64,000 bases of DNA, taken from Sphingobium sp. EM0848. GTDB lineage: Bacteria > Pseudomonadota > Alphaproteobacteria > Sphingomonadales > Sphingomonadaceae. The notes under the pieces are model-generated. The model was not told the DNA's origin, ran no database searches, and worked only from the letters and a program-made list of their open reading frames with translations. Location: the NCBI RefSeq assembly GCF_013375555.1, contig NZ_JABXWB010000005.1, positions 1,514,001 to 1,578,000 on the forward strand, in the 5' to 3' direction. Positions 1,427 through 24,249 of the stretch are shown here, piece by piece. A program made the position numbers and the translations under genes. Each line of letters begins with the position of its first letter. Position 1 is the first letter of the stretch.

Positions 1427-1469
1427 GACTGAGAGACCATCGCGCTCCCGCTTACCAAGGGAGTGACAC
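1427..1469 (+). promoter_or_regulatory. Shared 5' leader element, copy 1
   Basis: GACTGAGAGAC, four bases, GCGCTCCCGC, then AAGGGAG just before the ATG at 1470. CTCCC can pair with GGGAG around a nine-base loop, which would hide the Shine-Dalgarno. Same layout as eight other copies in the window. Confidence 0.7.
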
Positions 1470-1688
1470 ATGGATCTCAATCAACTTTATTTTGAGCATC
1501 AGATTTTGCTCATGAACGCCGCCGACGCGATCAGTGAGCCGGCACGCCGCAAGCATTTGGCCGCAGCGGGCATTATCGGCGGTCAGATCTTCGACCTGCT
1601 TTCCTCGAAAAAGGCGGATGCGTCGGGGAGTTGGCTGCCCTGGACGGATCAGTCCGGCCTGGCCACAGACATGGTTGCGTCGGCATGA
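1470..1688 (+). CDS. Small helical protein, leader-controlled
   Basis: A 72-residue protein starting MDLNQLYFEHQ. Its N-terminal half matches a layout seen in three other small proteins here: an aromatic near the start, then a run of Ala/Glu/Arg with an Arg-x-x-His or similar turn, predicted helical. It follows leader copy 1, with GGGAG serving as ribosome binding site seven bases before the ATG. The stop overlaps the next start (ATGA), so the two genes are probably translationally coupled. No enzyme motif, signal peptide or membrane segment is visible. Function unknown. Confidence 0.65.
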   Translation: MDLNQLYFEHQILLMNAADAISEPARRKHLAAAGIIGGQIFDLLSSKKADASGSWLPWTDQSGLATDMVASA

Positions 1689-1963
1689 CAGCGGACTCGA
1701 CCACACCGGCCCGCCCGCGAAGGCGAGCGTTCGTTAGCCGCGAGCCACGGATCTCTCCTGACCAGGCGAGGCGGCAGGGGTTGATCACGCATCTTGCATT
1801 CGTCCTTCTGGGGCAGGAGGAAGCAATCCGCTTTCTGAACACCCACAATGCCTCGCTTGGCGCACGGCCCCTCGATTTGGCGATCGCCGATCCAGCGGGA
1901 TATTCAAGGGTGGAAGGTGCGGTCCAGCTCCTTGCCCGACCCGCAGCCGGCGGTCGGCAGTAA
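1685..1963 (+). CDS. DUF2384-like (Xre/MbcA/ParS C-terminal type) small protein
   Basis: A 92-residue protein. The start at 1685 is chosen because it overlaps the upstream stop. A basic, Pro-rich N-terminus leads to ISPDQARRQG, and the C-terminal half reads EEAIRFLN....LGARPLDLA, followed by a short helix. That is close to the toxin-binding domain of Xre/MbcA/ParS antitoxins, where a leucine-rich helix precedes a G-x-R/T-P-x-D/E-L turn. A paralogue lies at 22568-22801. Known relatives pair with RES toxins, but none is nearby and the only partner is the 72-residue helical protein. The domain call is by eye. Confidence 0.55.
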   Translation: MTADSTTPARPRRRAFVSREPRISPDQARRQGLITHLAFVLLGQEEAIRFLNTHNASLGARPLDLAIADPAGYSRVEGAVQLLARPAAGGRQ

Positions 1964-2036
1964 TCTTGCTCGTCAACCCATGCTCACCAGGATTGGACAG
2001 AAGATGGCAGGTGTCCCGGCAGAGGAAACGGAACTC

Positions 2037-2159
2037 ATGGCTCGCTATGGCATCATCAAGGTGCCGGCATATCGCTACCATTATCGTGACTGGCGGTATT
2101 CGACCTTGAACGATGCGCTTGCTCAAGCCAGGCGCGATGAGGCGGCGCGCTCGAAATGA
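2037..2159 (+). CDS. 40-residue protein with MxRY...RYSxLxDAxAQARRD motif
   Basis: The start at 2037 is preferred because GAGGA lies about ten bases upstream and because the protein then aligns with the C-terminal tail of the membrane protein at 19396-19752. Both share a Met-x-Arg-Tyr opening, a Tyr-rich middle, Arg-Tyr-Ser, and Asp-Ala-x-Ala-Gln-Ala-Arg-Arg-Asp near the end. Earlier in-frame ATGs at 1980 and 2004 are possible but have weaker ribosome binding sites. It may be a small free-standing domain. Function unknown. Confidence 0.5.
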   Translation: MARYGIIKVPAYRYHYRDWRYSTLNDALAQARRDEAARSK

Positions 2160-2438
2160 GCAGCGCGCCGCGGCATTTGGTCGTGCCACGGGTGCGATCG
2201 CAGTGCGAAATCGAAGGAAACTGAAGACGGAGTTCCGGGCAGATGGAAGAGTATTCGCTCGATTAGCCCGGATCGGTTTTTGCATTTCCGTCGATTTGTG
2301 CTATCAACGCCTTGCTGAACGTCGCGCTTCGACGGATATCGGGCCGCTTCGGCTCTCCCTTGTCCCACATTTGCCTCTTGAAGCCGGGATGCCCGCATTG
2401 TCGCGTGCGCCCATGAAACTTGGACAAGGAGCTCCAAT

Positions 2439-2645
2439 ATGTTCATCGGAACAGTCAAATTTTTCAATGCCGACAAAGGCTATGGCTTCATCGCGCCGGA
2501 AAGCGGCGGCGGCGACGCCTTCGTGCATATAACCGCGGTTGAACACGCGGGCATGCGCACGCTCGAGAAGGATCAGCGCGTGTCTTACACGCTGGAAACG
2601 GATCAGCGCGGCAAGGCATCGGCCACCAACCTTCAGCCTGCCTGA
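2439..2645 (+). CDS. Cold-shock domain protein, copy 1
   Basis: A 68-residue, single-domain CspA-type protein. RNP1 is KGYGFI and RNP2 is AFVHI, on the usual five-stranded nucleic-acid-binding barrel that acts as an RNA chaperone. AAGGAGCTCC precedes the ATG. The 279 bases upstream hold no gene and could be a long 5' UTR, as is usual for csp genes. A close paralogue lies at 21671-21877, also inside a small-gene island. Next downstream is the alanine-rich protein at 2709. Confidence 0.92.
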   Translation: MFIGTVKFFNADKGYGFIAPESGGGDAFVHITAVEHAGMRTLEKDQRVSYTLETDQRGKASATNLQPA

Positions 2646-2708
2646 CGGAGGGTCGGGCGGCTTCCGCCGCCGCCCCCCACGCGAATTTGAAACAGGACTT
2701 TCCTCTTA

Positions 2709-3044
2709 ATGAAAAGATATAAGGAACCGCATTTCCAGGAGCGCATAGCCGCTGCGGCGAGCGCCCGGACAGAGGTTCTCGAGCGACTGCGGACGAAAGT
2801 GCCCGTAGTTCGGGGTGTTACGCCCGACCAAGCAGAACGCCGTCTGGCAAAGGAAGCTGCGGCGCGGCAAAGGCGCCAGGCGGCCCTGCTCGCGGCGAAA
2901 GAGCAAAAAGCCGCCAAACGTGCGCAGGCCAATGAAATTGCCGCGGCGAAGGCGGCCAAGCAAAAGCCCGAACTCAGTGAGGCTGAACGCAAATCAGCCC
3001 GCGATGCGCGATATCTCGCCCGCAAGAACCGGCTATCGTCTTGA
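2709..3044 (+). CDS. Alanine/lysine-rich coiled-coil protein (DUF6481-like)
   Basis: 111 residues opening MKRYKEPHFQERIAAA, then a long Ala/Lys/Arg/Glu helix (residues ~10-105) with heptad-like spacing, ending ARDARYLARKNRLSS. From memory this resembles DUF6481, a small basic family common in sphingomonads and often found next to cold-shock genes, as here. It is cytoplasmic, with no signal peptide. The high basic content suggests nucleic-acid or ribosome association, which is inference only. Confidence 0.7.
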   Translation: MKRYKEPHFQERIAAAASARTEVLERLRTKVPVVRGVTPDQAERRLAKEAAARQRRQAALLAAKEQKAAKRAQANEIAAAKAAKQKPELSEAERKSARDARYLARKNRLSS

Positions 3045-3195
3045 GCGGGATGCTGCAAAGCCTTTCGGCTGGTGCGGCACCCTTGCAGATACAACCCCAT
3101 GTCCGTCGCCGCCATCGTCGCAAGCGCCTGATCAAAGGCCGCGCCGTGCAGCGAGGGACAACTATACAAATGCGGCTCGCGCCGCGAGGACATTT

Positions 3196-3384
3196 ATGAA
3201 TATATTTTCCAAACCCGATAAACACGCAACCCGCTCCTCCTCCTTGCGCAGGCCGGAGTCGCGCCTTCCTGCTCTTGGCCGCCCGACGACGCTGTCGAGC
3301 AGTGAATTGAAGCGCGTCGTCATAGCGATGGTGGGCCGACTTCCCGGCAGATTATTCGCCGTGCGATCATCCAAGTTACAGTGA
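3196..3384 (+). CDS. Small basic protein, unidentified
   Basis: 62 residues starting MNIFSKPDK, rich in Arg and Ser, with GAGGA seven bases upstream of the ATG. A short hydrophobic patch (VVIAMVGRLPGRLFAV) near residues 41-56 is too short and charged for a clear membrane span. It sits nine bases before the next gene and may be co-transcribed with it. No recognised domain. The coding call rests on the ribosome binding site and the tight spacing. Confidence 0.4.
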   Translation: MNIFSKPDKHATRSSSLRRPESRLPALGRPTTLSSSELKRVVIAMVGRLPGRLFAVRSSKLQ

Positions 3385-3393
3385 GGAATCTCC

Positions 3394-3615
3394 ATGAGCC
3401 GAGAAGCAATCCGTCCCTATCTCATCTCCAAGGATGATGATGGGAATTTCCGGCTCACGGTACGCGAGACCCGCTACAATTCCCAAGGTTATCCGCTGGT
3501 CACATCGCATATGCAGGAGGAGACATTCAAATCCGCGGCCGCAGTCCGTACCTTCGCTCGCGACGTGTTCAAGGCCGAACCTGGCCAATATGACCAGACG
3601 AAGTCTCGGTCGTAA
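3394..3615 (+). CDS. Conserved-looking 73-residue protein, unidentified
   Basis: Starts MSREAIRPYLISKDD after AGGAATCTCC, a good ribosome binding site. The composition is balanced and soluble, with a pattern suggesting a small beta sheet followed by a helix (AAAVRTFARDVF, residues ~48-59). The spermidine-synthase-like gene starts six bases after its stop, so the two are probably one transcript. No family recognised. Confidence 0.6.
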   Translation: MSREAIRPYLISKDDDGNFRLTVRETRYNSQGYPLVTSHMQEETFKSAAAVRTFARDVFKAEPGQYDQTKSRS

Positions 3616-3621
3616 ACCGGA

Positions 3622-4326
3622 ATGACCGTACTGGCCCCACAGGATGACCGGGTGGCAATTCCGGTAGAGCTGGTTGACACCGCACAACTTCCCGACGGAG
3701 GTGAATTGCTCCTGTGGCGTCGAGGAGACGATTATTCGATCCGGTTCGGCGAAGATGAACTGATGGGCAATCAGGTTCGCCATTCGGAAGAAGCGCTGGC
3801 GACACTGGTATGCGAACGGCTGCCCCATCGGGATGCCCGCATCCTCATCGGCGGGCTGGGCATGGGCTTCACGCTGGGGGCGGCACTTTCATCGCTTGCA
3901 TCGTCGGCTGAGGTCATCGTCGCCGAACTTGTGCCTGAGATCGTCAAATGGGCAAGGGGGCCGCTAGCCCATCTGTTTCAGGACCATCTCGTCGATCCCC
4001 GCCTGTCGCTTGAGATGGCCGATGTCCATGACGTGATCGTCAGGCAGGAGGCCGCATTCGACGCCATTCTTCTGGACGTCGATAATGGTCCCGACGGGAT
4101 GATCCACCTTCCCAACGAACGGCTTTACTGCGACTGGGGATTGCGTTCGGCGCGTGACGCGCTGAGGGCCGGTGGCATTCTCGCCATATGGTCCGCCTAT
4201 ACGGATGATGACTTTGTCGATCGCCTGGAGAATGCCGGTTTCGATGTGGAAGAGGTGAGCATCCCTGCGCTGGCCGGCGAGGAACATGTAATTCACACGA
4301 TCTGGCTTGCATCCAAGGGTGATTGA
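3622..4326 (+). CDS. Spermidine-synthase-like Rossmann methyltransferase-fold protein, copy 1
   Basis: 234 residues. The SAM/dcSAM-type loop is LIGGLGMGFTLG (residues ~74-85), the strand-2 acid sits in VIVAELVPEIV, and the strand-4 motif is DAILLDVDNGPDG (residues ~145-157), all typical of the spermidine synthase fold. It is shorter than true spermidine synthases (~280) and lacks the usual N-terminal sheet, so the substrate is unknown. A close paralogue lies on the other strand at 24857-25607. Co-directional with the 73-residue protein just upstream. Confidence 0.8.
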   Translation: MTVLAPQDDRVAIPVELVDTAQLPDGGELLLWRRGDDYSIRFGEDELMGNQVRHSEEALATLVCERLPHRDARILIGGLGMGFTLGAALSSLASSAEVIVAELVPEIVKWARGPLAHLFQDHLVDPRLSLEMADVHDVIVRQEAAFDAILLDVDNGPDGMIHLPNERLYCDWGLRSARDALRAGGILAIWSAYTDDDFVDRLENAGFDVEEVSIPALAGEEHVIHTIWLASKGD

Positions 4327-4327
4327 G

Positions 4328-4354
4328 GTCGGCGGCTAACGATGAGCCGGCGAC
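4328..4354. terminator. Hairpin between convergent genes
   Basis: GTCGGCGGCT and AGCCGGCGAC face each other around AACGATG, a ten-position stem with one G-G mismatch. There is no T-run, so it is a possible rather than certain terminator. Confidence 0.45.
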
Positions 4355-4363
4355 ATTCCGTGG

Positions 4364-4642
4364 CTAATCTGCTCGGCGCCAGAATCGGGTGTCAGAACAG
4401 GAATGCTGAGCTTTCGTAGAAGGTTGGGCCTTGATGCCGGGGTGGACTCCGGCGACTGCGCCACCTTCGTTTTCCCAATCATCGATCGCAGCCTCCAGTC
4501 GCCGTTCACGCTCCCGCGGAAGGGATGCCGCGCGACGTGTCCGTTCCCGTGCCGCGCCCAGGGCGAGCCCCTGTCGCTCGACGTTGGCGTGCAAACCACG
4601 CTCCCGCGATGATGAAGAGGGAGAATATATTGAGATGGACAT
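4364..4642 (-). CDS. Arg/Glu-rich small protein, leader-controlled
   Basis: 92 residues starting MSISIYSPSSSSRERG at 4642. This start is chosen because leader copy 2 ends right before it, with AAGGAGAG as ribosome binding site. The middle (residues ~18-60) is a charged Arg/Glu/Ala helix and the C-terminus is polar and probably disordered. No known domain. It is convergent with the spermidine-synthase-like gene. The conserved leader is the best evidence that it is a real gene. Confidence 0.55.
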   Translation of the reverse strand: MSISIYSPSSSSRERGLHANVERQGLALGAARERTRRAASLPRERERRLEAAIDDWENEGGAVAGVHPGIKAQPSTKAQHSCSDTRFWRRAD

Positions 4643-4686
4643 GTCGCTCTCCTTGCCAAACGGGAGCATAAGTCTCTCTCAGTCAC
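4643..4686 (-). promoter_or_regulatory. Shared 5' leader element, copy 2
   Basis: On the reverse strand: GTGACTGAGAGAGAC, then TTATGCTCCCG, then AAGGAGAG and the ATG at 4642. CTCC can pair with GGAG. This copy has an extra GA in the purine run. Confidence 0.65.
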
Positions 4687-4736
4687 AGCATGTTTGGAAA
4701 TCAGAACTGGGATACGTTAATATACCACATAATACA

Positions 4737-4829
4737 TCAGGAACCTAACGGACTCATCCTCCGGAGATGCAGGAGAAATGGGCCATTAAATCGTTCGACC
4801 GCCTGACCGATCCGTAGAAGGGGGAACAT
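4737..4829 (-). CDS. 30-residue microprotein or gene remnant behind a leader element
   Basis: A short reading frame, MFPLLRIGQAVERF..., ending MSPLGS, starts at 4829 with AGGAGAG five bases upstream, and leader copy 3 precedes it. Composition is half hydrophobic and half basic. It may be a genuine microprotein or the truncated stump of a longer leader-controlled gene. I would not call it without the leader. Confidence 0.35.
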   Translation of the reverse strand: MFPLLRIGQAVERFNGPFLLHLRRMSPLGS

Positions 4830-4871
4830 GGCCGCTCTCCTCTTGTGCGGGAGCGCGATTGTCTCTCGCTC
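4830..4871 (-). promoter_or_regulatory. Shared 5' leader element, copy 3
   Basis: Reverse strand: GAGCGAGAGAC, AATC, GCGCTCCCGC, then AGGAGAG and the ATG at 4829. Uniquely, GGGAGCG at its 5' edge can pair perfectly with the CGCTCCC, giving an alternative stem (4849-4873) that would release the ribosome binding site. Confidence 0.55.
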
Positions 4872-4994
4872 CCGGCGAGCAGTGAGATCGAAGCCGCGAC
4901 GGCAGCGTGTACACGCATGGACTCGGTTGCCTAACGGTCACATCGATCCTTCTCGGCATATGAACGATGGACGCTGAGCGGCGTTATAGCCTTT

Positions 4995-5258
4995 ATGGCT
5001 CCTCCTCCGATTGAACAAGCCGCCAATGCCCTCGTCGCAGAGGTTCAAAGGCAATCAGCAACCCGTCTGGCGTTCTATGACCCTGAAGGTGACTTTCATT
5101 TGAGCGCTACAGAGTTGGTCCGATCCGTCGTCACCTCCTTGCGAGAACCCTCCCAACAGATGATAGACGCGGCCATCTACGAGGAGAGTGCCGACCCCCG
5201 TGCGACGGCAAAACATGTTTGGCAGGCCATGATCGACGTCATGCTGGCGGAAGACTGA
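4995..5258 (+). CDS. Small soluble protein, unidentified
   Basis: 87 residues, MAPPPIEQAANALVAEV..., predicted mostly helical with a beta-like stretch (RLAFYDPEGDFHLSA, residues ~22-36). No membrane segment or known motif. No leader element is visible before it and the ribosome binding site is weak, so expression is uncertain. Reading density and normal composition support a real gene at the edge of the small-gene island, just before the IS91-type scar. Confidence 0.5.
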   Translation: MAPPPIEQAANALVAEVQRQSATRLAFYDPEGDFHLSATELVRSVVTSLREPSQQMIDAAIYEESADPRATAKHVWQAMIDVMLAED

Positions 5259-5440
5259 AAGTCTATTCCAAAATGGTCGAACAGGGCGTGGTAGGTTCCT
5301 CGCGATGGATTGGCAGGTTTGCCGAGTCACCCGTTGCCGACCCGCCATTCTGGAATCGGCCATTTGGGTGCGAAGTTCGAATAGCTGCCCTTCCGGACCT
5401 AGGTATCGAAAATTGGCCCCGGAACGGCAAAGAAGGTTTA

Positions 5441-5635
5441 GGGTTTCGGGCGCTTGCGTACGAAAGCCTCCCATGCAGGAACCCGCGATTCCAGCAGGTT
5501 GCCCTATGGGGATTTATGCTTTCGGCTGGTTCGGCTGGACCAGAGATGCACGCTGATGGACGCGCGAGGGCGGCGGAACGGCAGGTTCTGGGATGTGCCA
5601 GAGGCGTGTTCATCGCTCTGACCGTGATGATGCCA
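5441..5635 (+). repeat. Left arm of a 195-bp inverted repeat
   Basis: Matches the reverse complement of 6191-6385 over its whole length, roughly 85 percent by eye, without net gaps. It flanks the transposase fragment. The 5259-5440 stretch before it holds no gene I can support. Confidence 0.75.
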
Positions 5636-5730
5636 GGAGCTGACACCGGCCCTTTTGGAGACGGACGCAGGCCTTGCCTTTGGCCACCGCAGCAGATGTG
5701 GGGTCATGGTGGCTGTTCGATCATGCCGGG

Positions 5731-6190
5731 TCATGACGCAAGTTCCCGGATCGGCAGGGTCGGCTGGGGTGGCGCCCGTGGCTGACCCCAGCGCGCAAAG
5801 GTCTCAATGACGATCATGCGCCCGCCACAGCACGGGCATGGTGGGCAGGTGTCGAGCGGAGTTTCGGGCATTGGCACCTTTGGTTCCGACGGGACAGCCA
5901 GCAGCCTCCGGGCGAGCGCGAGATTGTCCCTACGCGCTGCGCTGGCGAGCAGGCCGTAATGGCGGATGCGGTGGAAGCCGCGCGGCAGGACGTGGAGCAG
6001 GAAGCGACAGATAAACTCGTCAGCGGTAAGGGTCATGAGACGGTGGCGTTCAGCGCCGTCGCGGCGATAGTCCTTGTAGCGGAAGGTGACGCCGTTTTCG
6101 TCGAACGCGACCAGGCGCCGGTTCGAGATGGCGACGCGGTGGGTGTAGCGCGAGAGATAGGCGAGCACCGCCTCGGGTCCAGTAAAAGTT
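5731..6190 (-). pseudogene. IS91-family transposase, C-terminal fragment
   Basis: The reverse strand encodes TGPEAVLAYLSRYTHRVAIS, then RLVAFDENGVTFRYKDYR, a CPCCGGRM zinc-knuckle-like tail and a stop at 5731. This is the end of the Y2 rolling-circle transposase of IS91/IS801-type elements. The N-terminal half, with the HUH metal site and catalytic tyrosines, is missing: the frame runs into the right arm of the inverted repeat at 6190. It is a dead remnant. IS91 elements move by rolling-circle transposition and often drag neighbouring DNA. Confidence 0.8.
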
Positions 6191-6385
6191 GGCATCATCA
6201 CGGTCAGAGCGCCGAACATGCCTCTGGCGCATCCCAATGCCCGCCGTTCCGCCGCTGTCGCGCGTCGACCATCGCGACTCTCTTATCCAGCCGAACCAAC
6301 CGAAAGCATAAATCCCCATAGGGCAACCTGCTGGAATCGCGGGTTCCTGCATGGGAGGCTTTCGTACGCAAGCGCCCGAAACCCT
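6191..6385 (-). repeat. Right arm of the 195-bp inverted repeat
   Basis: Reverse-complement partner of 5441-5635. With the ~555-base centre, the two arms form a long interrupted palindrome around the transposase remnant. The 6386-6567 stretch to the next gene shows nothing I can name. Confidence 0.75.
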
Positions 6386-7635: not shown

Positions 7636-7643
7636 GTCGACTC

Positions 7644-12124: not shown

Positions 12125-12135
12125 AATCGGTGCCG

Positions 12136-15716: not shown

Positions 15717-17143
15717 GATCGTGTCCCATTGCGTGGTGTAGGATCGCGGGCGTAGCCACGTCGATCTCCGGCTAGGCCGGGTTGATCACGCTGCCATGTT
15801 GGGCAACGTGATGAGGCTATTATCGCTCAATCCCGCGACGCTCTCAAGCGTCATATAGCGGGACCGCTGGACCGACCATTCATCGTTCTGTTCCAGCAAG
15901 ATAGCGCCGACGAGTCGGGTAATGGCTTCTTCGTTGGGGAAGATCCCGACTACCTCGGTGCGGCGCTTGATCTCGCCATTGAGGCGCTCGATGGGGTTGT
16001 TGCTGTGAAGCTTGGTGCGATGCTGAGCCGGGAAGGTCATATACGCCAGGACGTCCTCCTCGGCACTGTCCATCAAGGCGGACAGCTTCGGGACGGAAGA
16101 GCGCAACTGGTCTGCGACCGCACGCCACTGGGTTTTTGCCGTTTCGGGTGTGTCCTGGGCGAAGGCGGTTGCGATGAACGCTGAGACGACGCGGCGGCCG
16201 CTCTTTCCGGCGTGCGCCAAGGCGTTGCGCATGAAGTGCACACGGCACCGCTGCCAAGTGGCGCTCAACACCTTGGCGACAGAAGCCTTGATACCCTCAT
16301 GGGCATCGGAGATCACAAGCTTCACGCCCCGCAAGCCGCGGCGCGCCAGGCTGCGCAGGAACTCGGTCCAGAAAACCTCCGCCTCGGAATGACCGATCGT
16401 CATGCCGAGCACTTCGCGGCGGCCGTCACTGTTCACGCCGACTGCGATGATCACGGCAACCGATACGATCCGGCCTTCCCGGCGAACCTTGATGTACGTC
16501 GCATCGAGCCACACGTACGGCCAGTCGCCCTCGATCGGCCGCTCGAGGAAAGCTTTCACGCGTACGTCGATTTCTTCGCACAGGCGGCTCACCTGGCTTT
16601 TTGAGATCCCGCTCATGCCCATCGCTTTGACCAGATCGTCGACTGACCGCGTCGAGACGCCCTGAATGTACGCCTCCTGGATGACAGCGGTCAGTGCCTT
16701 CTCCGCCATCCGGCGCGGCTCCAGAAACCCGGGGAAGTAGGTTCCCTTACGCAGCTTGGGAATCCGCAGCTCCACCGTGCCGGCCCGCGTCTCCCAGTCC
16801 CGCTCGCGATAGCCGTTGCGCTGGGCGAGACGTTCAGGAGCCTTCTCCCCGTACGCCGCGCCCGTCAGGCCGCCAACCTCCATCTCCATCAGCCGCTGCG
16901 CCGCAAAACCAATCATCTCACGCAGGAAATTGCCATCGGCGCTCTTCCCAATCAACGACTGCACGTCCATCATGTCCTTGGTCATCGGTGTCTCCGTAAG
17001 TTGAGTTTCGCAACCCAAGCTTATCCGAAGTTCGCCGATGGCCACCCGCAAAACTGACCGGCCGCTACAGCGCTTTATCGATGAGCGCGCGTCCGGTCAG
17101 TTTCGCTACCCTCAGAACCTACACCACTCGGCGGGGCACGATC
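15717..17143 (-). mobile_element. IS256-family insertion sequence with 8-bp target duplication
   Basis: 1427 bp. The ends are imperfect inverted repeats: GATCGTG, a few bases, then GTGGTGTAGG on the left, with the matching reverse complement on the right. TTTGCCGC flanks both sides (15709-15716 and 17144-17151), the 8-bp duplication expected for this family. One transposase gene fills it. It is inserted in the serine recombinase gene. Confidence 0.93.
15786..16985 (-). CDS. IS256-family (Mutator-type) transposase
   Basis: 399 residues from 16985. The DDE residues are visible: [13 protein letters not shown] (first Asp, residue ~166), [11 protein letters not shown] (second Asp) and [20 protein letters not shown] (Glu, residue ~345). 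The family signature after the second Asp, [13 protein letters not shown], is present. Full length, no stops, so the element is probably active or recently so. Confidence 0.95.
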
Positions 17144-17891: not shown

Positions 17892-17930
17892 TGAACCGCC
17901 CCGGCATTGCCGGAGCCCATTTGATTTGAG

Positions 17931-19159
<1,229 letters not shown>

Positions 19160-19395: not shown

Positions 19396-19752
19396 TCAAG
19401 AGATTTTATCATCCCGCCGAGCTTGCGCAACGGCATCATCAAGATTTGAATATCGGAATCGGCCATATTCATACTGATCAACAATAACATGTTTGATTTC
19501 ATATCTTTTCATTAAATCATTATGCTCAATGTTATCTTTCTTTGGAAAATTATTTCTATGTGTTTCATCGAGATCGATGGGAGATATTTCAGCGGAAGAC
19601 ATTGGATCTGTCTGCAAATCGATTTTCCTATTTTCTAGCGTTAATTGCTGGGCAATATTCTTCCTTCTGTACCTGAATATGAGACCGAGCAGGAGCACAA
19701 CGCCCACGATGACTGGTGCGAAGTCTCGAAACCAAGACCACAGGTCATTCAT
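19396..19752 (-). CDS. Single-span membrane protein with RYSxLxDAxAQARRD tail
   Basis: 118 residues from 19752. An N-terminal membrane helix (VIVGVVLLLGLIF) is followed by a basic RYRRK stop-transfer and a polar linker. The C-terminal domain has MKRYEIKHVIVDQYEYG, FRYSNLDDAVAQARRDD. This tail matches the free 40-residue protein at 2037-2159. Its start lies inside the upstream gene (8-base overlap), so it is coupled to the leader-controlled 84-residue protein. Orientation with the tail in the cytoplasm is likely from the positive residues. The tail's role is unknown. Confidence 0.65.
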   Translation of the reverse strand: MNDLWSWFRDFAPVIVGVVLLLGLIFRYRRKNIAQQLTLENRKIDLQTDPMSSAEISPIDLDETHRNNFPKKDNIEHNDLMKRYEIKHVIVDQYEYGRFRYSNLDDAVAQARRDDKIS

Positions 19753-19999
19753 GACAGTCACCGACAGGATGCGCGGTCCCCCAATCCCACGCTTGTCCCC
19801 ACGCCTTCATGGAGCTTTCCAGGATGCGCTTGTCCGCCCTGGTAAGACGACGCCCTTCGACAAGTTTCCTTTGAACGCCTCCCAAGGCAAGGAACACGCG
19901 GTCCTGCAATTCAATAAGCGGCAGACTCGTGGGAGAAAATCGACCTTCGGCAACAACCCACGCTTGAATGAGGCTTAACCCGGCACCAGTGATATGCAT
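19745..19999 (-). CDS. 84-residue protein, leader-controlled
   Basis: Starts MHITGAGLSLIQAWVV at 19999, right after leader copy 4 and its AAAGGAGGAG. Mostly helical, with an amphipathic stretch (IELQDRVFLALGGVQRKLV, residues ~28-46) and a Trp-rich C-terminus (AWGQAWDWG). No known domain. First gene of a two-gene unit with the membrane protein, which it overlaps by eight bases. Confidence 0.6.
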   Translation of the reverse strand: MHITGAGLSLIQAWVVAEGRFSPTSLPLIELQDRVFLALGGVQRKLVEGRRLTRADKRILESSMKAWGQAWDWGTAHPVGDCHE

Positions 20000-20044
20000 G
20001 ACGCTCCTCCTTTCATAGGCGGGAGCGCAATGTCTCTCAGTCAC
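20000..20044 (-). promoter_or_regulatory. Shared 5' leader element, copy 4
   Basis: Reverse strand: GTGACTGAGAGAC, ATT, GCGCTCCCGCC, then AAAGGAGGAGCG before the ATG at 19999. GCGCTCC can pair with GGAG(GAG)CG, one of the longest stems of the set. Confidence 0.7.
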
Positions 20045-20172
20045 TCTACGCCTTCGGGGATGAAGCAGTGATAGAAGTATCTACCATAACCGAACGTCCC
20101 TGTCGCATGTCGATATTTGCCAAATTGGCGATTTGATCGTCGAGGATGGAAGCCGTGGCGCGGCCAGCGTGA

Positions 20173-20409
20173 TCAATAGCGCACCGGAACGATCCGAATG
20201 CGGTCGATTGCACTGGGGGTGGCGCGTAACAGTGCAACCGCCGCCGTTCGTACCTCTTCCATCAGGATCGCGTCATAATCCTCAGCTTCCGGTCGCATCT
20301 CGACATCGGTTTCAATCACCAGGATGAGACGCCGTTCGCGCCCGTCGATCTCCCACTCGTGCCAACTGCGTACAATGTTTCGATGGGAAAGAGGTTCGGC
20401 CATTTTCAT
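20173..20409 (-). CDS. 78-residue protein, leader-controlled
   Basis: MKMAEPLSHRNIVRSW at 20409 follows leader copy 5; a second Met at 20403 is also possible. A beta-hairpin-like part (WEIDGRERRLILVIETDVEM) precedes a helix and a short strand, compatible with a small alpha/beta fold. Soluble and acidic. No family recognised. It may be distantly similar in layout to the 60-residue protein at 22914-23096, which also has a beta-rich start and an acidic helical end. Confidence 0.55.
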   Translation of the reverse strand: MKMAEPLSHRNIVRSWHEWEIDGRERRLILVIETDVEMRPEAEDYDAILMEEVRTAAVALLRATPSAIDRIRIVPVRY

Positions 20410-20454
20410 TATCCCGTCAGCAAGCGGGAGCACAATCCGGTCTCTCAGCCGGTC
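20410..20454 (-). promoter_or_regulatory. Shared 5' leader element, copy 5
   Basis: Reverse strand: GGCTGAGAGAC, a six-base spacer, GTGCTCCCGCTTG, then ACGGGATA before the ATG at 20409. CCCG pairs with CGGG. The Shine-Dalgarno is weaker than in other copies. Confidence 0.6.
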
Positions 20455-20608
20455 GAAGCCTGCGGGAACGCGCTACCGATCCATGGACAGTATAGGAACG
20501 GTAGGCATGAAGCCAGCCTTTGATCCGCACGCATCGCGAATCGATGCGCGGTTCATGGCAGGATGTGCTATGGAACGGGATCACGCGATTTTCCGCCGCA
20601 AGCTTCCT

Positions 20609-20656
20609 GTGACAGAGAGACTTATGCGCTCCCGCTTGCATAGCTGGAGGATGACA
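20609..20656 (+). promoter_or_regulatory. Shared 5' leader element, copy 6
   Basis: GTGACAGAGAGAC, TTAT, GCGCTCCCGCTTGC, then CTGGAGG six bases before the ATG at 20657. CTCC can pair with GGAG. Upstream CCGCAAGC is shared with copy 9. Confidence 0.7.
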
Positions 20657-21055
20657 ATGTCCGGTTCTCTGGACCATCCGTTTTTTGAAGCTTTTGGGAT
20701 TCTCGCCGGGAAGCCTGTCGAACGGGATATGGCCAACCGACAATCGCAGCCGGACTATGCCTCATCGGCCCGGAATGACGCTGGTCTGTTGGGATCGGTT
20801 CCCTGGCGTTCCATACCCTTATGGGTTTCCAACGATCGCGCTGAACCCTATTTCGAAATTTATCGGGTCATGCCCGCCCATATGCTGGCCAGCCGTGCCG
20901 GGCCTGAGGATTGGCGGTGGCGTTTCTGCACGGCCGATGGCCATGTCCAAGCCGCCAGCGGCAGCTACACCAATGCAAGTGACTGCCGGAATGCCATCGA
21001 TGCCCTGCGCCGCACTGCCGGGGGTGCACGGGTCAGGCAAATAGGCGAGGGTTGA
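20657..21055 (+). CDS. YegP/DUF1508-like domain protein, leader-controlled
   Basis: 132 residues. The N-terminal ~65 residues are polar with no recognised motif. The C-terminal part reads YFEIYRVMPAH, WRWRFCTADGHVQAASGSY, then CRNAIDALRR, the layout of the small DUF1508 (YegP) repeat: a three-strand sheet, a G-x-Y turn and a helix beginning Cys-x-x-Ala-Ile. E. coli YegP carries two tandem copies of unknown function. The start follows leader copy 6 and its GGAGG. Confidence 0.65.
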   Translation: MSGSLDHPFFEAFGILAGKPVERDMANRQSQPDYASSARNDAGLLGSVPWRSIPLWVSNDRAEPYFEIYRVMPAHMLASRAGPEDWRWRFCTADGHVQAASGSYTNASDCRNAIDALRRTAGGARVRQIGEG

Positions 21056-21121
21056 AACGATAGCCGATATAGAAGTGCCATCGCCGCCATGTTAGGATCA
21101 AGGCATCGCTGTATATTGCAA

Positions 21122-21163
21122 GCGACTGAGAGACATATGCGCTCCCTCATCAAGTGGGAGTGT
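21122..21163 (+). promoter_or_regulatory. Shared 5' leader element, copy 7
   Basis: GCGACTGAGAGAC, ATAT, GCGCTCCCTC, then AAGTGGGAG before ATGs at 21164 and 21167. CTCCC pairs fully with GGGAG. Confidence 0.7.
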
Positions 21164-21376
21164 ATGATGGGTCCTACTGGAAAAGGCCTCGACCCCGCCC
21201 ATATGTTGATCGGGGCGACCCGGCAGTTGGAGTCGGATGATGCTGGCTCCCTCATGAAACTCGAACGCCTTGCCTATCTTTTGCACATGGCAAAGGAAAA
21301 ACTGGAAAGCGGCTTTGATCTTTCAGCAGAGGAAGTTCTCCAGCTTAACGAAGCGTTGGATGGTCTGACACAATAA
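21164..21376 (+). CDS. 70-residue helical protein, leader-controlled
   Basis: MMGPTGKGLDPAHMLI; the second Met at 21167 is better spaced from GGGAG. Two or three amphipathic helices: MLIGATRQLESD, LMKLERLAYLLHMAKEKLES and AEEVLQLNEALDG. Acidic and soluble. No known family. The 294 bases that follow hold only the presumed 5' UTR of the second cold-shock gene. Confidence 0.65.
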   Translation: MMGPTGKGLDPAHMLIGATRQLESDDAGSLMKLERLAYLLHMAKEKLESGFDLSAEEVLQLNEALDGLTQ

Positions 21377-21670
21377 CTAGGCTGACGATCAATTCACTGA
21401 GCCTGTTTCTGTGCCGTCCATTGATCGGGATGGACTTCATTCATATTGTCTCGCGTTAATTTTGTTATGGCTTAGCCCGAGAATTAAAGGCTTTCGAACG
21501 CATCAGGTGAGGGCGGATTGACTTTTGCCCTGTCAACTGCCATATGAGGCGCGCTAAACGTCGCCTGCGACGGAATTTGCCCCTTTGGGTGCTCCTTCCC
21601 TTCTCGCGCTATCGGCTCCGCTCGTGCTTTTGCGGGCGGGTATCCTGTTTTCGTGAAAGGAAACATCCCC

Positions 21671-21877
21671 ATGCCCATCGGCATCGTAAAATTCTTCAAC
21701 GCCGACAAAGGCTATGGCTTCATTGCGCCGGAAGACGGCGGCGGCGACAGTTTCGTGCACATTTCCGCCGTCGAACGCGCGGGCATGGCGACGCTGCAGA
21801 AGGATCAGCGGCTGAGCTACGAGGTCGAGACCGATCGTCGCGGCAAACAGTCAGCCATCAATCTCGCAAGCGTCTGA
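21671..21877 (+). CDS. Cold-shock domain protein, copy 2
   Basis: 68 residues from 21671, with AAAGGAAA upstream; a GTG at 21653 is in frame but less likely. RNP1 KGYGFI and RNP2 SFVHI are intact. Closely similar to copy 1 at 2439-2645: both have VKFFNADKGYGFIAPE and GGGD before the second motif. Nucleic-acid-binding RNA chaperone type. Confidence 0.92.
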   Translation: MPIGIVKFFNADKGYGFIAPEDGGGDSFVHISAVERAGMATLQKDQRLSYEVETDRRGKQSAINLASV

Positions 21878-21948
21878 CAGGACGGCCAGGCGGATCGTCC
21901 GCGTGGAACCAGCGTTTCCTGGCATGGTCTATGTCGATGCCGGGGTGG

Positions 21949-21995
21949 CATTCCCCGCTTTCCTGTCGATACGGCTGGCAAGAGTGCGGGGAATG
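21949..21995. repeat. Inverted repeat after the cold-shock gene
   Basis: CATTCCCCGC (21949-21958) faces GCGGGGAATG (21986-21995) across 27 bases. A possible transcript-end structure; no T-run follows. Confidence 0.4.
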
Positions 21996-22186
21996 TTCAA
22001 GGGTTTGAGGGGGCTATGCTGTGCCTCCTGCCTTCGAGCCGGATTCTGTCCGGCATTTTCGTGCGCTGGATGAGTGAAGCCGTCCACACACACCAGGCCC
22101 GCCCCTGTCGCGGCGGGCATAGGCAGCGCCGAATATGCGCGCCACCTTTAATCATTGTGCGCCCATACGCGCTCATCAGGATCATC

Positions 22187-22333
22187 ATGAATTTCAAATT
22201 TCCGAATATCTCCGGCCTTTCCAATGGCCCTTCCGCTTTTCGCAAGATGCGCCGTCCGGAACATCGGCCTGTGCCCGCAGGCGTTCTTTCGGTTCCGGAT
22301 TTGCGCCGCATCGTGGCCGAAATGGTCGGCTGA
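22187..22333 (+). CDS. 48-residue protein, unidentified
   Basis: MNFKFPNISGLSNGPSAFRK from 22187, with AGGA seven bases upstream. A basic middle (KMRRPEHRPVPAG) and a short C-terminal helix (VPDLRRIVAEMVG). No domain recognised. The call rests on the ribosome binding site and on its place in a tight series of small genes. Confidence 0.4.
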   Translation: MNFKFPNISGLSNGPSAFRKMRRPEHRPVPAGVLSVPDLRRIVAEMVG

Positions 22334-22368
22334 AACGCCGCGGTTCGATTACATCCGGGAGACTGCCC

Positions 22369-22575
22369 ATGTCCGTCACCAGCGATTTCTACCTGGCGCG
22401 TGTCGCCCAATGCGACCGCGAGGCGGGGGAGACCGATCTGGCCAATGTGCGCGACCGTTGCTTGCGCGCAAAGGCGGCATGGCAGGCTATGGCCGACCGG
22501 GTCCTGAAGGGCGAGGCCGACCGAAAACAACAGGCAACCGACAAAATGGCCTATCAGGAGCGGCGCATTGGCTAG
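22369..22575 (+). CDS. Small helical protein of the Y-x2-R family
   Basis: 68 residues, MSVTSDFYLARVAQCDREAG, with GGGAG eight bases upstream. A long helix with alternating Ala/Arg/Glu (NVRDRCLRAKAAWQAMADRV). It shares the layout of 1470-1688, 24250-24465 and 24707-24874: an aromatic near the start, an acid-rich first helix, a break, then Arg-x-x-His/Cys and Ala-x-x-Tyr/Trp. It overlaps the next gene by eight bases, as 1470 does with its own DUF2384-like partner. Confidence 0.6.
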   Translation: MSVTSDFYLARVAQCDREAGETDLANVRDRCLRAKAAWQAMADRVLKGEADRKQQATDKMAYQERRIG

Positions 22576-22801
22576 ACAATCAGGCAGACATTTCAATGGG
22601 CCCCGCCTTTCTCCGGAACAGGCGGCGCGGCAAGGCCGTATTTCCCAATTGGCCATCGCCCGGCTAGGTGCACAGGACGCCATCGCGTTTCTCAACGGGA
22701 ATGACGAGAAATTGGGCGGAAGGCCGCTAGACCTGGCCATAGAGAGCTTCGAAGGCCTGCGCACTGTGGAGCAGCGCCTGGAAGAGCGGACCGACGCCTG
22801 A
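22568..22801 (+). CDS. DUF2384-like small protein, copy 2
   Basis: 77 residues from a TTG at 22568 inside the preceding gene. LSPEQAARQGRISQLAIARL, DAIAFLN....LGGRPLDLAIES aligns with 1685-1963 over the whole C-terminal part. That part has the shape of the toxin-binding domain of Xre/MbcA/ParS antitoxins. The repeated pairing of a helical protein with this domain at two loci argues that the two act together. Confidence 0.55.
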   Translation: MARQSGRHFNGPRLSPEQAARQGRISQLAIARLGAQDAIAFLNGNDEKLGGRPLDLAIESFEGLRTVEQRLEERTDA

Positions 22802-22874
22802 CATCTTCCACCGCAGGCCTTTTTAGAGGATGGTGCGGAAAAGTGGGAGCCTAAACGATGCAACAACCAAAACT

Positions 22875-22916
22875 TAGAGCGCGTAACCCACGTCGGATTT
22901 AACGCAGCGCGCTCTA
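22875..22916. repeat. Extragenic palindrome TAGAGCGCG / CGCGCTCTA
   Basis: Nine-base arms at 22875-22883 and 22908-22916 around a 24-base centre. AGAGCGC-type palindromes of this kind are widespread between alphaproteobacterial genes. It may end transcription of either flanking gene and reaches three bases into the minus-strand gene. Confidence 0.6.
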
Positions 22917-23096
22917 GAGTTCGGGTGGCAGTAAATCCTGATCGGTGTCGAGGCGCCGGTCTATCTCTTCACCCAGTCGATCAAGCTGGTCGAAGGATGC
23001 GCCTATGTCGAGGATTGTACTGTCGCCCAGGACCAGTCTCAGGCGATAGTTTTCGTCCTCGGCTTCAATGGAGAAATGGGCAAGGCGGGCGGTCAT
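22914..23096 (-). CDS. 60-residue acidic protein, unidentified
   Basis: MTARLAHFSIEAEDENYRLR from 23096. A beta-strand pattern (FSIEAED, YRLRLVLGDSTILDIG) is followed by an acidic helix (FDQLDRLGEEIDRRLDTD). Soluble. No known family. Sixty-five bases downstream of the phosphatidyltransferase stop and on the same strand, so possibly co-transcribed. Confidence 0.5.
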   Translation of the reverse strand: MTARLAHFSIEAEDENYRLRLVLGDSTILDIGASFDQLDRLGEEIDRRLDTDQDLLPPEL

Positions 23097-23161
23097 GGCG
23101 GTCTCCCAGCAAATATGCGGTCCCATGGCGATAAGGGCTATGATGCCCCTGTCTTTCACTT

Positions 23162-23848
23162 TTAGATGCGGCGCTCCGTTTCCGCGAGGGCGAGCCTTCT
23201 GCCTGTGACCAGCGTCTGGCCGATGAAGAGGACGATCAGGATCGATCCGACCGTCCCCACGAATATATCGAAGCCCGACCAGTGCCCGAAGAGTCCGGGC
23301 GCTGTCCCCAGCGCCATCATCATGATGGTCATTCCGATCAGCATAAACCTGAGTTCGGTCGGTCCGGCAGAAAGATAGGACAGCTTCAATTCGCCCAACA
23401 CCCGCGCCGACAGAAAGGCATGGATCGACAGCAACAGATAGCCCGCGAGTGCGATCAGGGCGACGTCCATCGTGACGAACGGGCTGAGGCCGATCCCAGC
23501 CAGGATGAGCAGCGTCGCCAATCCGTCGCAGCTATGATCGATGAAATAGCCGTAGGACGGGCGCTCGATATGACGGTATCGCGCCAGACTGCCGTCCATG
23601 GAGTCACCGAACCATTGCACGGCATAGCCCGCAATGGCGAGCAGCAGCCAGGATGAGGCGATGTTGCTGGCGACATATCCCGCAAAAATCATGATCGCGC
23701 CCACCATGCCAGTCGCCGTCAGGCGATCCGGCGTTATCCAGGACGGCATCCGGTGACACAGCCAGTTGAGCAGTCGCCGCTCATTGGCGGCAAGCCAGTT
23801 CTGTTGAATCCTGGAGAGCGATTGGGGGGATTGAGGCTGGATCGTCAT
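23162..23848 (-). CDS. CDP-alcohol phosphatidyltransferase family membrane protein
   Basis: 228 residues with about six membrane helices. The family signature D-x2-D-G-x2-A-R...G-x3-D-x3-D is present as GDSMDGSLARYRH then GYFIDHSCDG (residues ~80-108). This is the metal-binding active site that moves a phosphoalcohol from a CDP-activated lipid or headgroup. The substrate cannot be told from sequence. Inner-membrane phospholipid modification is likely. Confidence 0.88.
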   Translation of the reverse strand: MTIQPQSPQSLSRIQQNWLAANERRLLNWLCHRMPSWITPDRLTATGMVGAIMIFAGYVASNIASSWLLLAIAGYAVQWFGDSMDGSLARYRHIERPSYGYFIDHSCDGLATLLILAGIGLSPFVTMDVALIALAGYLLLSIHAFLSARVLGELKLSYLSAGPTELRFMLIGMTIMMMALGTAPGLFGHWSGFDIFVGTVGSILIVLFIGQTLVTGRRLALAETERRI

Positions 23849-23907
23849 AGGCCTTCGATCATAGTCTGGAACAACCGACGCACATGCGGCGGCATAATAT
23901 TCAGGTT

Positions 23908-24003
23908 TCAGCCGCCGCGTCCGAAGATGCGCCAGCCAAGAAAAATCAACACGACGACCGATGCGATCAGTGCTGCCTGAAAAGAGAGATCTCCTTCCTG
24001 CAT
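23908..24003 (-). CDS. 31-residue single-span membrane microprotein, leader-controlled
   Basis: MQEGDLSFQAALIASVVVLI then FLGWRIFGRGG. A short acidic N-terminus, one 17-residue membrane helix and a positive C-terminus. The start at 24003 is set by leader copy 8, whose GAGGGAG lies six bases upstream; an in-frame ATG at 24018 lies inside the leader. Its size and topology resemble known regulatory microproteins that sit beside larger membrane proteins, but the partner is unknown. Confidence 0.6.
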   Translation of the reverse strand: MQEGDLSFQAALIASVVVLIFLGWRIFGRGG

Positions 24004-24048
24004 GCCGTACTCCCTCATGCGCGGGAGCACGATGGTCTCTCTGTCGGA
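24004..24048 (-). promoter_or_regulatory. Shared 5' leader element, copy 8
   Basis: Reverse strand: CCGACAGAGAGAC, CATC, GTGCTCCCGCG, then GAGGGAG before the ATG at 24003. CTCCC pairs fully with GGGAG around eight bases. Confidence 0.7.
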
Positions 24049-24200
24049 TCGCGCGGACGAAAAACCCGATAATCTTTCGTAGCAGCCCTTACCCGACCCG
24101 AACAGAAGTTTATAAAATCCATGCGTCTTTACCGCGAGACGGGAAGGATATTCCATGCTATTTAGCCATTATTGCGCGAAATTTGCCGCAAGCATTCGCC

Positions 24201-24249
24201 GTGACAGAGAGACCGTCGTGCTCCCGCTTGCCAGCCGAGGAGCTTCGTC
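24201..24249 (+). promoter_or_regulatory. Shared 5' leader element, copy 9
   Basis: GTGACAGAGAGAC, CGTC, GTGCTCCCGCTTGC, then CGAGGAGC before the ATG at 24250. GCTCC pairs with GGAGC. Nearly identical to copy 6 over its first 35 bases. Confidence 0.7.

Follow-up and report, generated by a model that had tools for sequence, protein, structure and literature searches.

In the Guanidine-II (mini-ykkC) RNA, two linker-joined hairpins with fixed ACGR loops interact through these loops and control the Shine-Dalgarno sequence (SD). The ROSE-like RNA thermometers, known from Bradyrhizobium, mask the SD in the leaders of stress genes, and the TPP aptamer contains a CUGAGA motif. With respect to the Alphaproteobacteria, the serC element is described, in the portion of the source consulted, as two hairpins right after the transcription start site (TSS), the second of which hides the ribosome-binding site, and the SAM-II riboswitch also belongs to this class of bacteria (PMC1273637). 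The alphaproteobacterial odc1 motif, tested from Sphingomonas echinoides, is presented in the consulted part of its source as a pseudoknot with the SD in a stem, a UUG start and a fixed uORF of 11 aa; in most cases it stands ahead of ornithine decarboxylase (PMC8632094).

The window, by which we mean the whole stretch of 64,000 nucleotides analysed, had been reported to hold nine copies of a shared hairpin leader. All nine leaders are real; they lie where the preliminary description placed them, on both strands and with an ATG after each. The pattern GAGAGAC-N3..7-GYGCTCC has eight matches in the window, where 100 shuffles gave none, and the ninth leader (4643), with GAGAGAG and ATGCTCCC, falls outside it. 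The stated consensus proved slightly too strict when the nine leaders were read by eye: GACWGAGAGAC is exact in six of the nine (exceptions 4643, 4830 and 20410), GYGCTCCCGC in seven (exceptions 4643 and 21122), and a GGAG-type SD is found in eight, 20410 having GGGAT. The genome has 16 copies in total, all within 38 kb of its 5.6 Mb (C5:1,500,155-1,538,241), and a covariance-model search found no further place reaching E 0.01 in the rest of the genome; a single match to a looser pattern on contig C2 was supported by no model. The same 16 copies are recovered by model R3, whose seed contained none of this genome's copies.

In full, the leader consists of two hairpins and a linker, the CUCCC/SD hairpin noticed at the outset being only its second half. 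Hairpin 1 (P0), of up to 8 bp (UCRCC...GGYGR), begins at the predicted transcription start. The linker that joins it to hairpin 2 has the consensus CWGAGAGAC-N4, and no other unpaired stretch in the lineages examined is as conserved as its CWGAGAG, which lies outside the SD helix. In hairpin 2 the CUCCC probably pairs with the SD, in a helix (S2) that is nearly invariant on both sides. A further helix (S1, up to 6 bp) links the two loops: the 3' part of loop 1 pairs with bases beside CUCCC in the loop of hairpin 2, and the two hairpins thus seem to kiss. The preliminary description was right about an anti-SD leader common to a set of microprotein genes, but it missed P0 and S1, and its GAGAGAC block turns out to be the inter-hairpin linker. 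The hairpin loops are long and variable in sequence, and two ACGR tetraloops were not found in them. At some sites CTCTC or CCCCC replaces CTCCC, and some Bradyrhizobium-type copies have lost the final AC of the linker (GAGAGTG, GAGAGCA). The window copies have a short P0 (3-6 pairs in the four that were counted), and leaders 21122, 4830 and 24004 have a short S1 or none.

The genome's best match to R3 is leader 1427 (64.5 bits), which runs from the predicted +1 A to the SD (1398..1463, +) and comprises the P0 hairpin, the kissing arms, the linker CTGAGAGAC with its GAGAGAC block at 1431..1437 (+), the anti-SD CTCCC and the SD GGGAG. It precedes a 72-aa protein (MDLNQLYFEHQ..., 1470..1688, +) whose family accompanies the leader in several genera. 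Leader 4643 (4648..4713, -; R1 65 bits, R3 40 bits), with S1 arms CCAAAC/GTTTGG, stands before a 92-aa ORF (MSISIYSP..., 4364..4642, -) that carries the WENEGG motif and has paralogues in L045. The weakest copy, leader 4830 (4835..4900, -; R3 22 bits), has an S1 that cannot be paired by eye and GGAGC before the linker, and is perhaps degenerate; the 30-aa ORF behind it (4737..4829, -) is of doubtful coding status. Leader 20000 (20007..20072, -; R3 48.7 bits) precedes an 84-aa ORF (MHITGAGLSL..., 19745..19999, -). Leader 20410 (20412..20480, -; R3 58.6 bits), with the linker GGCTGAGAGAC, precedes a 76-aa protein (MAEPLSHRNIVRSWHEWEIDGRER..., 20173..20403, -) that recurs together with its leader at L077 and L080, in the same genus, and at L135 and L188, which belong to two further genera. 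The S1 arms GCAAGC/GCTTGC are found both in leader 20609 (20580..20647, +; R3 48.6 bits), before a 132-aa protein with a DUF1508 domain (PF07411, E 1.4e-7; 20657..21055, +), and in leader 24201 (24171..24239, +; R3 44.9 bits), before a 71-aa protein (MEDLNYLLK..., 24250..24465, +) that is a recurrent partner downstream of the element in Sphingobium. Leader 21122 (21105..21160, +; R3 30.5 bits), before a 69-aa protein (MGPTGKGLDPAHML..., 21167..21376, +), has a strong SD hairpin and no S1 arm that we could find. Finally, leader 24004 (24009..24070, -; R3 30.9 bits), with a short S1, precedes a 31-aa microprotein (MQEGDLSFQAAL..., 23908..24003, -), which probably has one membrane span; it is divergent from the 24250 gene, an arrangement also present in L082, L084, L085 and L087.

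P0 was absent from models R1 and R2, and yet among 105 sites below 80% identity its own arms out-pair swapped arms (mean run 5.65 vs 4.06), with none of 5000 permutations reaching the real value; this is the one test free of P0-leaning selection. When column pairs were scanned over 139 R3-anchored sites, P0 pairs took ranks 1, 2, 4 and 5 (z of 18.2, 13.5, 10.7 and 8.0; the pair at rank 3 consists of adjacent columns), and in a 25-sequence MAFFT alignment P0 and S1 score 0.636, against 0.262 when shuffled and at most 0.115 when slid; the column-scan sites are R3 matches and seed A6 was picked for at least six P0 pairs, so that both lean towards P0. For S1, 98.4% of cells are paired, with changes on both sides in five of the six pairs, in an alignment fitted to S1. 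Swap tests of this helix gave 5.17 vs 4.07 (P 2e-4) for 115 Sphingomonadaceae sites, which come mostly from S1-bearing models, and 4.21 vs 3.13 (P 2e-4) for 19 sites of 22 pattern-fetched loci. Among 34 Bradyrhizobium sites, the best R3 matches, the values were 5.32 vs 5.03 (P 0.008); among 34 sites mostly of other families, where S1 is often just GGC/GCC, they were 3.79 vs 3.45 (P 0.012). In the unselected 30 pattern-found loci six S1 pairs can form in 10 (33%), compared with 12.6% in swaps. Judged by these comparisons, S1 appears best supported in the Sphingomonadaceae.

The swap excess of S2 is small (4.80 vs 4.62 overall, P 2e-4; P 0.016 for the 115 Sphingomonadaceae sites and 0.014 for the same best-scoring Bradyrhizobium set), and for the Y-R pair of the extended helix the test gave no significance (Fisher P 0.13); since S2 is nearly invariant, covariation supports it only weakly. 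CTCC(C) and GGAG can pair as originally proposed, but P0 and S1 are the stems that covary well, not the SD hairpin. The swap tests of all three helices were run on subsets from which redundant sites had been removed (105 and 149 sites), and neither they nor the shuffle statistics have a phylogenetic tree in the model. For want of an anchor, 13 of 173 covariance-model matches were dropped from the P0 swap test and 13 from that of S2. R3 scoring of the pattern-found loci (L015-L044) took 22 of the 30, the other eight looking like chance matches, and its pattern-found sites are therefore chosen by context. Loci L146-L151 were left out of two analyses and L141, which overlaps L161, of one; L192-L200 were not modelled.

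Folding models agree with an SD that is likely masked by CUCCC: its mean unpaired probability is 0.19 in the native leaders, 0.41 with CUCCC barred from pairing and 0.335 in shuffled leaders. In plain nested folding 92 of 149 sites have an SD:CUCCC pairing probability above 0.5, and only 79 have such a probability for P0; of the seven window leaders in the folded subset, two (24004 and 21122) pass this level for SD:CUCCC and one (21122) for P0. The SD:CUCCC helix can reach 8-9 bp at 5/149 sites and at 5/34 Bradyrhizobium sites.

Upstream, a composition profile anchored on 66 sites reveals TTG, about 17 nt, a weak YATAAT-like box and then an A, which is conserved in 93% of these sites one base ahead of P0, so that P0 begins at the predicted +2. 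This profile was used instead of an E. coli-consensus promoter scan, which found one site where 2.0 were expected. An ECF-type promoter, GAAC-N15..20-GTT, precedes 17 of 52 Bradyrhizobium copies (0.5 expected) and one of 198 Sphingomonadaceae copies (1.7 expected). Downstream, 67 of 105 non-redundant sites stand directly before small genes, as first claimed, compared with 1.9% of 4200 random positions, when a GGAG and a well-spaced ATG, GTG or TTG of an ORF of at least 40 aa are demanded; with ATG only, the figures are 49/105 and 0.95%. At 21 of 183 sites no clear start codon was found. The called starts are mostly ATG, unlike the UUG start of the main ORF in odc1.

The genes concerned encode small proteins and some Crp/Fnr-like regulators. 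The earlier statement that the proteins share no sequence is mostly right inside the window, but families exist outside it: the 4643 protein has paralogues behind two leaders of L045 and the 24201 protein has one paralogue, and the downstream proteins repeatedly show MDLN/MEDLN N-termini and W(E/D)NEGG motifs. Pfam and NCBIfam gave few matches, namely DUF1508, DUF6894 and a sub-threshold cNMP-binding match in a 120-aa piece; beyond the latter, the label "Crp/Fnr-like" is our own reading. Matches to TPM_phosphatase, CrtE and HVO_2922 were sub-threshold and ignored. There are csp genes in the same cluster as the window leaders, and a plasmid copy of the element has csp and Hsp20 genes no more than about 2.5 kb away.

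Many sphingomonad genomes carry the leader in a covariance-model search, in line with what had been anticipated: 85 of 94 sampled genomes in the genus of the source genome and 96 of 249 in its family, the remaining 153 having no match at E 0.01. The family of leaders extends past the sphingomonads, with the element in 59 of 60 Bradyrhizobium genomes (up to 23 copies each). With R2, a class-wide search gave matches in 12 of 240 at E 0.1, most of them low-scoring; the weak matches of another class search were followed up in part, and outside the class the element occurs only weakly.

We favour, with a probability of about 0.68, the reading that the leaders form a new class of cis-acting RNA that controls translation in Alphaproteobacteria. 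In this kissing double hairpin the SD would be closed by default and switched in trans. Comparative sequence supports the conserved element, P0, S1 and the placement of the element between promoter and start codon. The transcript would start at the conserved A and fold into P0; beyond the linker, hairpin 2 would form S2, and S1 would join the two loops, so that P0, S1 and S2 stack as a pseudoknot expected to keep the SD closed. A trans signal reading the linker might then shift the kissing complex and switch many small genes together. A conserved leader fold with covariation, one mark of a riboswitch, was found, and because up to 23 copies per genome precede unrelated genes, we would guess first that the leader is a riboswitch answering to a general stress or second-messenger-like signal. 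That this is a large undescribed alphaproteobacterial class, with the CUGAGAG linker as ligand pocket and some 20 microprotein genes plus Crp/Fnr-like regulators under it, is a tentative proposal to which we would give somewhat less than even odds.

Alternatively, the RNA may sense nothing, the same fold being opened or closed by a protein or a conserved sRNA (GUCUCUC-type) on CWGAGAGAC. This is possible, if against the odds: among the unpaired parts the linker is conserved best, a single trans-factor would account for many copies before unrelated genes, and the csp and Hsp20 neighbours could be read in the same sense, but loss of the AC end in some copies leaves about 7 nt to pair. An RNA thermometer, suggested at the outset, would have the SD hairpin simply melt with heat. 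The short SD helix and the nearby cold-shock genes suit it; however, neither a nearly invariant unpaired block nor a covarying loop-loop helix is needed for melting or expected of a thermometer, the melting of the SD helix alone does not account for the conservation of CWGAGAG, and helices of 8-9 bp can form in some copies, so that we consider it unlikely.

A 5'-terminal hairpin beginning at +2 could chiefly guard the mRNA 5' end from decay, SD pairing being secondary, but this leaves CUCCC, S1 and the linker unexplained and is quite improbable. It is very doubtful indeed that only the originally noted hairpin is real, with P0 and S1 as by-products of shared ancestry; the copies are partly paralogous, the swap and shuffle tests are tree-blind and nested folding favours P0 in little over half of the sites, yet P0 was found unmodelled and recurs with very different arms, and the slid controls collapse. 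Scarcely credible, finally, is an operator or promoter part acting as DNA: its distance to the promoter is fixed, but it lies downstream of the predicted +1, is oriented to the start codon, has covarying stems and stays where the promoter type changes to the ECF-type of Bradyrhizobium. If the kissing double hairpin is real, the DUF6894, DUF1508, MDLN/MEDLN and WENEGG groups and the Crp/Fnr-like regulators would form one regulon under one switch. The small proteins mostly lack an assigned function, and the hosts are culturable soil bacteria and a soybean-symbiont genus; the trigger becomes testable with a single reporter, and the covariance model can be used to find the regulon in other alphaproteobacterial genomes.

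As first supposed, no named family fits: no Rfam 15 family matches at the scanned elements, and in the whole window only ALIL (18762-18878, an IS element) reaches its gathering score. Matches below threshold were taken to be chance; they include AEV_CRE, HOTAIR_3 and cspA in 1300-5000 (all three away from the elements), Fluoride in L208 (away from the element), HCV_5BSL1, mir-936, veev_FSE, MEG8_1, sR10 and raiA. A description of the element was not found in open-access PMC texts without supplements, which is not proof of absence, nor in the consulted portions of PMC8632094, PMC1273637, PMC4842269 and PMC5082802.

Compared with Guanidine-II, the leaders have a longer and variable loop-loop helix and a fixed linker, with no Rfam match. 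The SAM-II, SAM/SAH and preQ1-II riboswitches are, in the portions of the sources consulted, likewise small leader pseudoknots, with no Rfam match at the leaders; their consensus and genes differ. ROSE-like thermometers mask the SD in like manner, but their sequence differs, they lack a kissing loop and they have no Rfam match at the leaders. Many copies have GGCUGAGAG, which is similar to the CUGAGA motif in the TPP aptamer; this is a lead only, the TPP riboswitch having no match in the Rfam scans. The odc1 motif shares the alphaproteobacterial range, the SD in a stem and the pseudoknot, and differs in its UUG start. The serC element (RF00517) spans 52 positions, is described before the serC operon and has no match at the scanned elements, and the genome's own copy, elsewhere (C1:2573604), lacks the GAGAGAC linker; but it too has two hairpins after the TSS, the last hiding the ribosome-binding site, an arrangement that the leaders would share by model with a predicted TSS and predicted masking, and this copy also carries GTGCTCTC...GGAG.

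All nine leaders of the preliminary description (1427, 4643, 4830, 20000, 20410, 20609, 21122, 24004 and 24201) are present where it placed them, and GAGAGAC-N3..7-GYGCTCC matches eight times in the window versus not once in 100 shuffles, the ninth leader, 4643, being only a near match. The consensus drawn by eye was too strict, since GACWGAGAGAC is exact in six of the nine, GYGCTCCCGC in seven and GGAG in eight. The covariance-model search proposed at that time, carried out with R1, a model built from nine copies, gave 16 copies genome-wide, all within 1,500,155-1,538,241 of contig C5. R3, a later model, has a seed of 25 sequences exclusively from other genomes and agrees on the same set, its next match in the genome lying at E 0.0106. 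Of the 14 matches to a looser pattern, 13 fall in this stretch and the other, on contig C2, is supported by no model.

The element extends well beyond this genome; the counts at each rank refer to samples and not to entire groups. The pattern alone matches 117 of 298 family genomes, a figure that includes hits by chance. Within the genus, 85 of 94 genomes carry the element by R1 at E 0.1, often as a single copy (16 in the source genome, 10 in G299, 9 in G303), and R2, the intermediate model, detects it at E 0.01 in 96 of 249 family genomes and 51 of 96 genera; in the order R2 matched 33 of 147 genomes, every one Sphingomonadaceae. For the class, R3 at E 0.01 matches 29 genomes out of 289, three of them Sphingomonadaceae; five other-family genomes fall below 1e-6, and many hits are weak or partial. 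In the phylum R3 matched 23 of 249 genomes: eight Sphingomonadaceae, ten from other families of the class and five from outside it, these last weak (E 0.002-0.009). One genus, g347, which we take as Bradyrhizobium via a protein 100% identical to one of B. daqingense, has the element in 59 of 60 genomes (E 0.001), with up to 23 copies each.

The covariation expected of the stems was found largely in two helices that the preliminary description had missed, its own hairpin S2 (CUCCC with the Shine-Dalgarno, SD) giving a weak signal. In the first, S1, the hexamer 3' of CTCCC pairs with another that lies about 17 nt 5' of GAGAGA, with compensatory changes in the arms (GCAAGC/GCTTGC, GCAGGC/GCCTGC, CCAAAC/GTTTGG, GTAGGC/GCTTAC). 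In an alignment fitted to S1 (82 matches, 71 distinct rows), 98.4% of cells are paired, both sides change in five of six pairs and the covariation score is 0.307, against 0.138 when shuffled. The second, P0, which emerged in wider-family matches and is absent from R1 and R2, pairs the transcript's first bases (TCRCC...) with those immediately 5' of C-W-GAGAGA. When arms were swapped between 105 sites of <80% identity, the mean P0 run was 5.65 for own and 4.06 for swapped pairs, exceeding all 5000 permutations. Aligned simply with MAFFT, 25 sequences selected for a P0 of at least six pairs give P0 and S1 a joint score of 0.636; shuffling lowers this to 0.262 and sliding by 1-3 columns to 0.115 or less, and both sides change in 11 of 14 pairs. 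In a scan of column pairs over 139 R3-anchored sites, P0 pairs take ranks 1, 2, 4 and 5 (z 18.2, 13.5, 10.7, 8.0), rank 3 being two adjacent columns; S1, which lies at a variable distance from the anchor, cannot appear in such a scan. Swapping the S1 arms gave 5.17 against 4.07 in 115 Sphingomonadaceae sites (P 2e-4), most of them found via S1-bearing models, and 4.21 against 3.13 (P 2e-4) in 19 sites from 22 loci that had initially been retrieved by sequence pattern and were chosen by context. The values are 5.32 and 5.03 in 34 Bradyrhizobium sites (P 0.008), and 3.79 and 3.45 (P 0.012) in 34 sites, mostly of other families, where S1 is weaker and often just GGC/GCC. P0 and S2 are predicted to be consecutive hairpins, separated by a linker, CWGAGAGAC-N4-GYG, with S1 connecting their loops. 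Leaders 4643 and 4830, and 6214 and 8912 of locus L045, have a GTTAGG-type motif in common about 70-75 nt 5' of the linker.

CUCCC is present in 139 of the 149 sites retained. Our folding program scores nested structures, the kissing fold being outside its reach; on this basis the mean unpaired probability of the SD is 0.19, 0.41 with CUCCC barred from pairing and 0.335 in shuffled leaders, and SD:CUCCC exceeds 0.5 in 92 of 149 sites and P0 in 79. Counting against the reading proposed here, among the seven window leaders folded SD:CUCCC exceeds 0.5 only in 24004 and 21122, and P0 only in 21122; P0 is short in window copies (3-6 pairs, four counted). The S2 swap test gave 4.80 against 4.62 (Bradyrhizobium, 34 sites: 5.76 against 5.44, P 0.014), a weak signal, since the two strands hardly vary. 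Some sites lengthen S2 to 8-9 bp (GUGCUCCC with GGGAGCAC, GCGCUCCC with GGGAGCGC); the Y-R association of the extension fails to reach significance in Bradyrhizobium (Fisher P 0.13), and in a wider set a raw count of 25 of 29 is pairable, G-U included. The S2 helix is thus likely but unproven. In leader 4830 (window 4835-4900, minus strand) the linker is flanked by an additional inverted repeat, CGGGAGCG...CGCTCCCG, that would draw CUCCC from the SD; this copy may be decayed or rewired.

The upstream profile of 66 sites has TTG separated by about 17 nt from a weak YATAAT-like box, then an A (93%) one base before P0; the predicted mRNA would therefore begin pppAUCRC, with the element filling the 5' UTR. 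The preliminary description had named matches mostly inside genes, or unrelated to starts, as evidence against its proposal; instead, GGAG with a start codon 4-9 nt on that opens at least 40 codons stands at 67 of 105 sites versus 1.9% of 4200 positions drawn at random from these loci (49 of 105 versus 0.95% for ATG only). GAAC-N15..20-GTT occurs in 17 of 52 distinct Bradyrhizobium upstream stretches (0.5 expected from shuffles) and the variant [GC]AAC...[GT]TT in 27 (1.8 expected), placed like a -35/-10 pair; each is found in 1 of 198 Sphingomonadaceae stretches. The EcfG general stress response promoter is GGAAC-N-GTT, and ECF -35 boxes typically have AAC. That the element is kept while the promoter type differs argues for a function of the RNA, and part of the Bradyrhizobium copies would be tied to stress regulation. 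Some Bradyrhizobium upstream regions, L313, L306 and L326 among them, form a second promoter-like class beside the GAAC...GTT one, GCAAC-N-TTGT, perhaps that of a different ECF sigma factor. At L202 (G660) a second GAGAGA...CTCC match lies head-on, on the opposite strand, within the element's stretch.

The 153 distinct predicted ORFs downstream in Sphingomonadaceae have a median of 71 aa, 135 being at most 120 aa; loose regular expressions class 52 as having MDLN/MEDLN-type N-termini, 20 as W(E/D)NEGG-type, 5 as DUF1508-like and 3 as Crp/Fnr-like, leaving 61 without class. The 46 predicted elsewhere (26 without class) include DUF6894 (Pfam E 8e-14 and 9e-13 for the two tested), PDTFLGRK-type small proteins, Crp/Fnr-like regulators and probable membrane proteins of 30-40 aa; at L305 (G986, Bradyrhizobium) the element precedes a 143-aa ORF resembling a response regulator. 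An MDLNQLYFDHQ-family query, searched against 5.8 billion proteins, found 58 homologues, of which the few that are named read 'hypothetical' or 'uncharacterized', and eight of nine named relatives of the window's 71-aa gene are from Sphingobium. Leaders with S1 GCAGGC/GCCTGC (L045 5411 on the minus strand, L063, L071, L075, L076) have a start codon that opens no more than a short ORF lacking conservation (18 aa long in L071, L075 and L076), possibly a uORF with translational coupling; in L045 an ORF of 109-124 aa (MTIRSTRKPVTFSAPF... type) starts soon after two of them. Two CspA-like cold-shock genes in the leader cluster (2439-2645 and 21671-21877, plus strand) lack the element in front, and a Sphingobium yanoikuyae plasmid copy of the region has Hsp20 and cold-shock protein genes within about 2.5 kb. 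Transposase-like ORFs (5731-6237 and 15786-17051, minus strand) are sited between the two leader groups; a further one (17931-18836, minus) is overlapped by an ALIL pseudoknot (Rfam RF01497, 113.9 bits, 18762-18878, minus).

Sequence comparison thus supports a predicted conserved 5'-terminal element with P0 and S1, located before an SD and start. We consider it probable (roughly two chances in three) that this is a translational cis-regulatory RNA with a kissing fold and an SD masked by default. The kissing complex would likely stabilise the CUCCC:SD helix and keep translation low, the linker presumably being the sensor. As for the trigger, the TPP aptamer contains a CUGAGA turn, which the element's GGCUGAGAG resembles, a lead only; because of this likeness, and because many copies before unrelated genes suit a second-messenger-type ligand, a riboswitch is our first choice. 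Reading of the linker by a protein or sRNA in trans is almost as likely, and an RNA thermometer less so.

The preliminary description knew of no named family with this consensus, and comparison with Rfam 15 likewise gave zero matches at the elements; no description of the element was found in the literature searched, which comprised the main texts of open PMC papers. The odc1 element (PMC8632094) is unlike this one in its start codon, its uORF and the gene it precedes. An identification with the serC element (RF00517) is ruled out, and serC is set apart as another family, because no scanned copy matches it and the genome's own serC element sits elsewhere. It is nevertheless the nearest described element: according to its description (PMC1273637), two hairpins follow the transcription start and the second covers the SD, a two-hairpin, SD-hiding layout like that proposed here.
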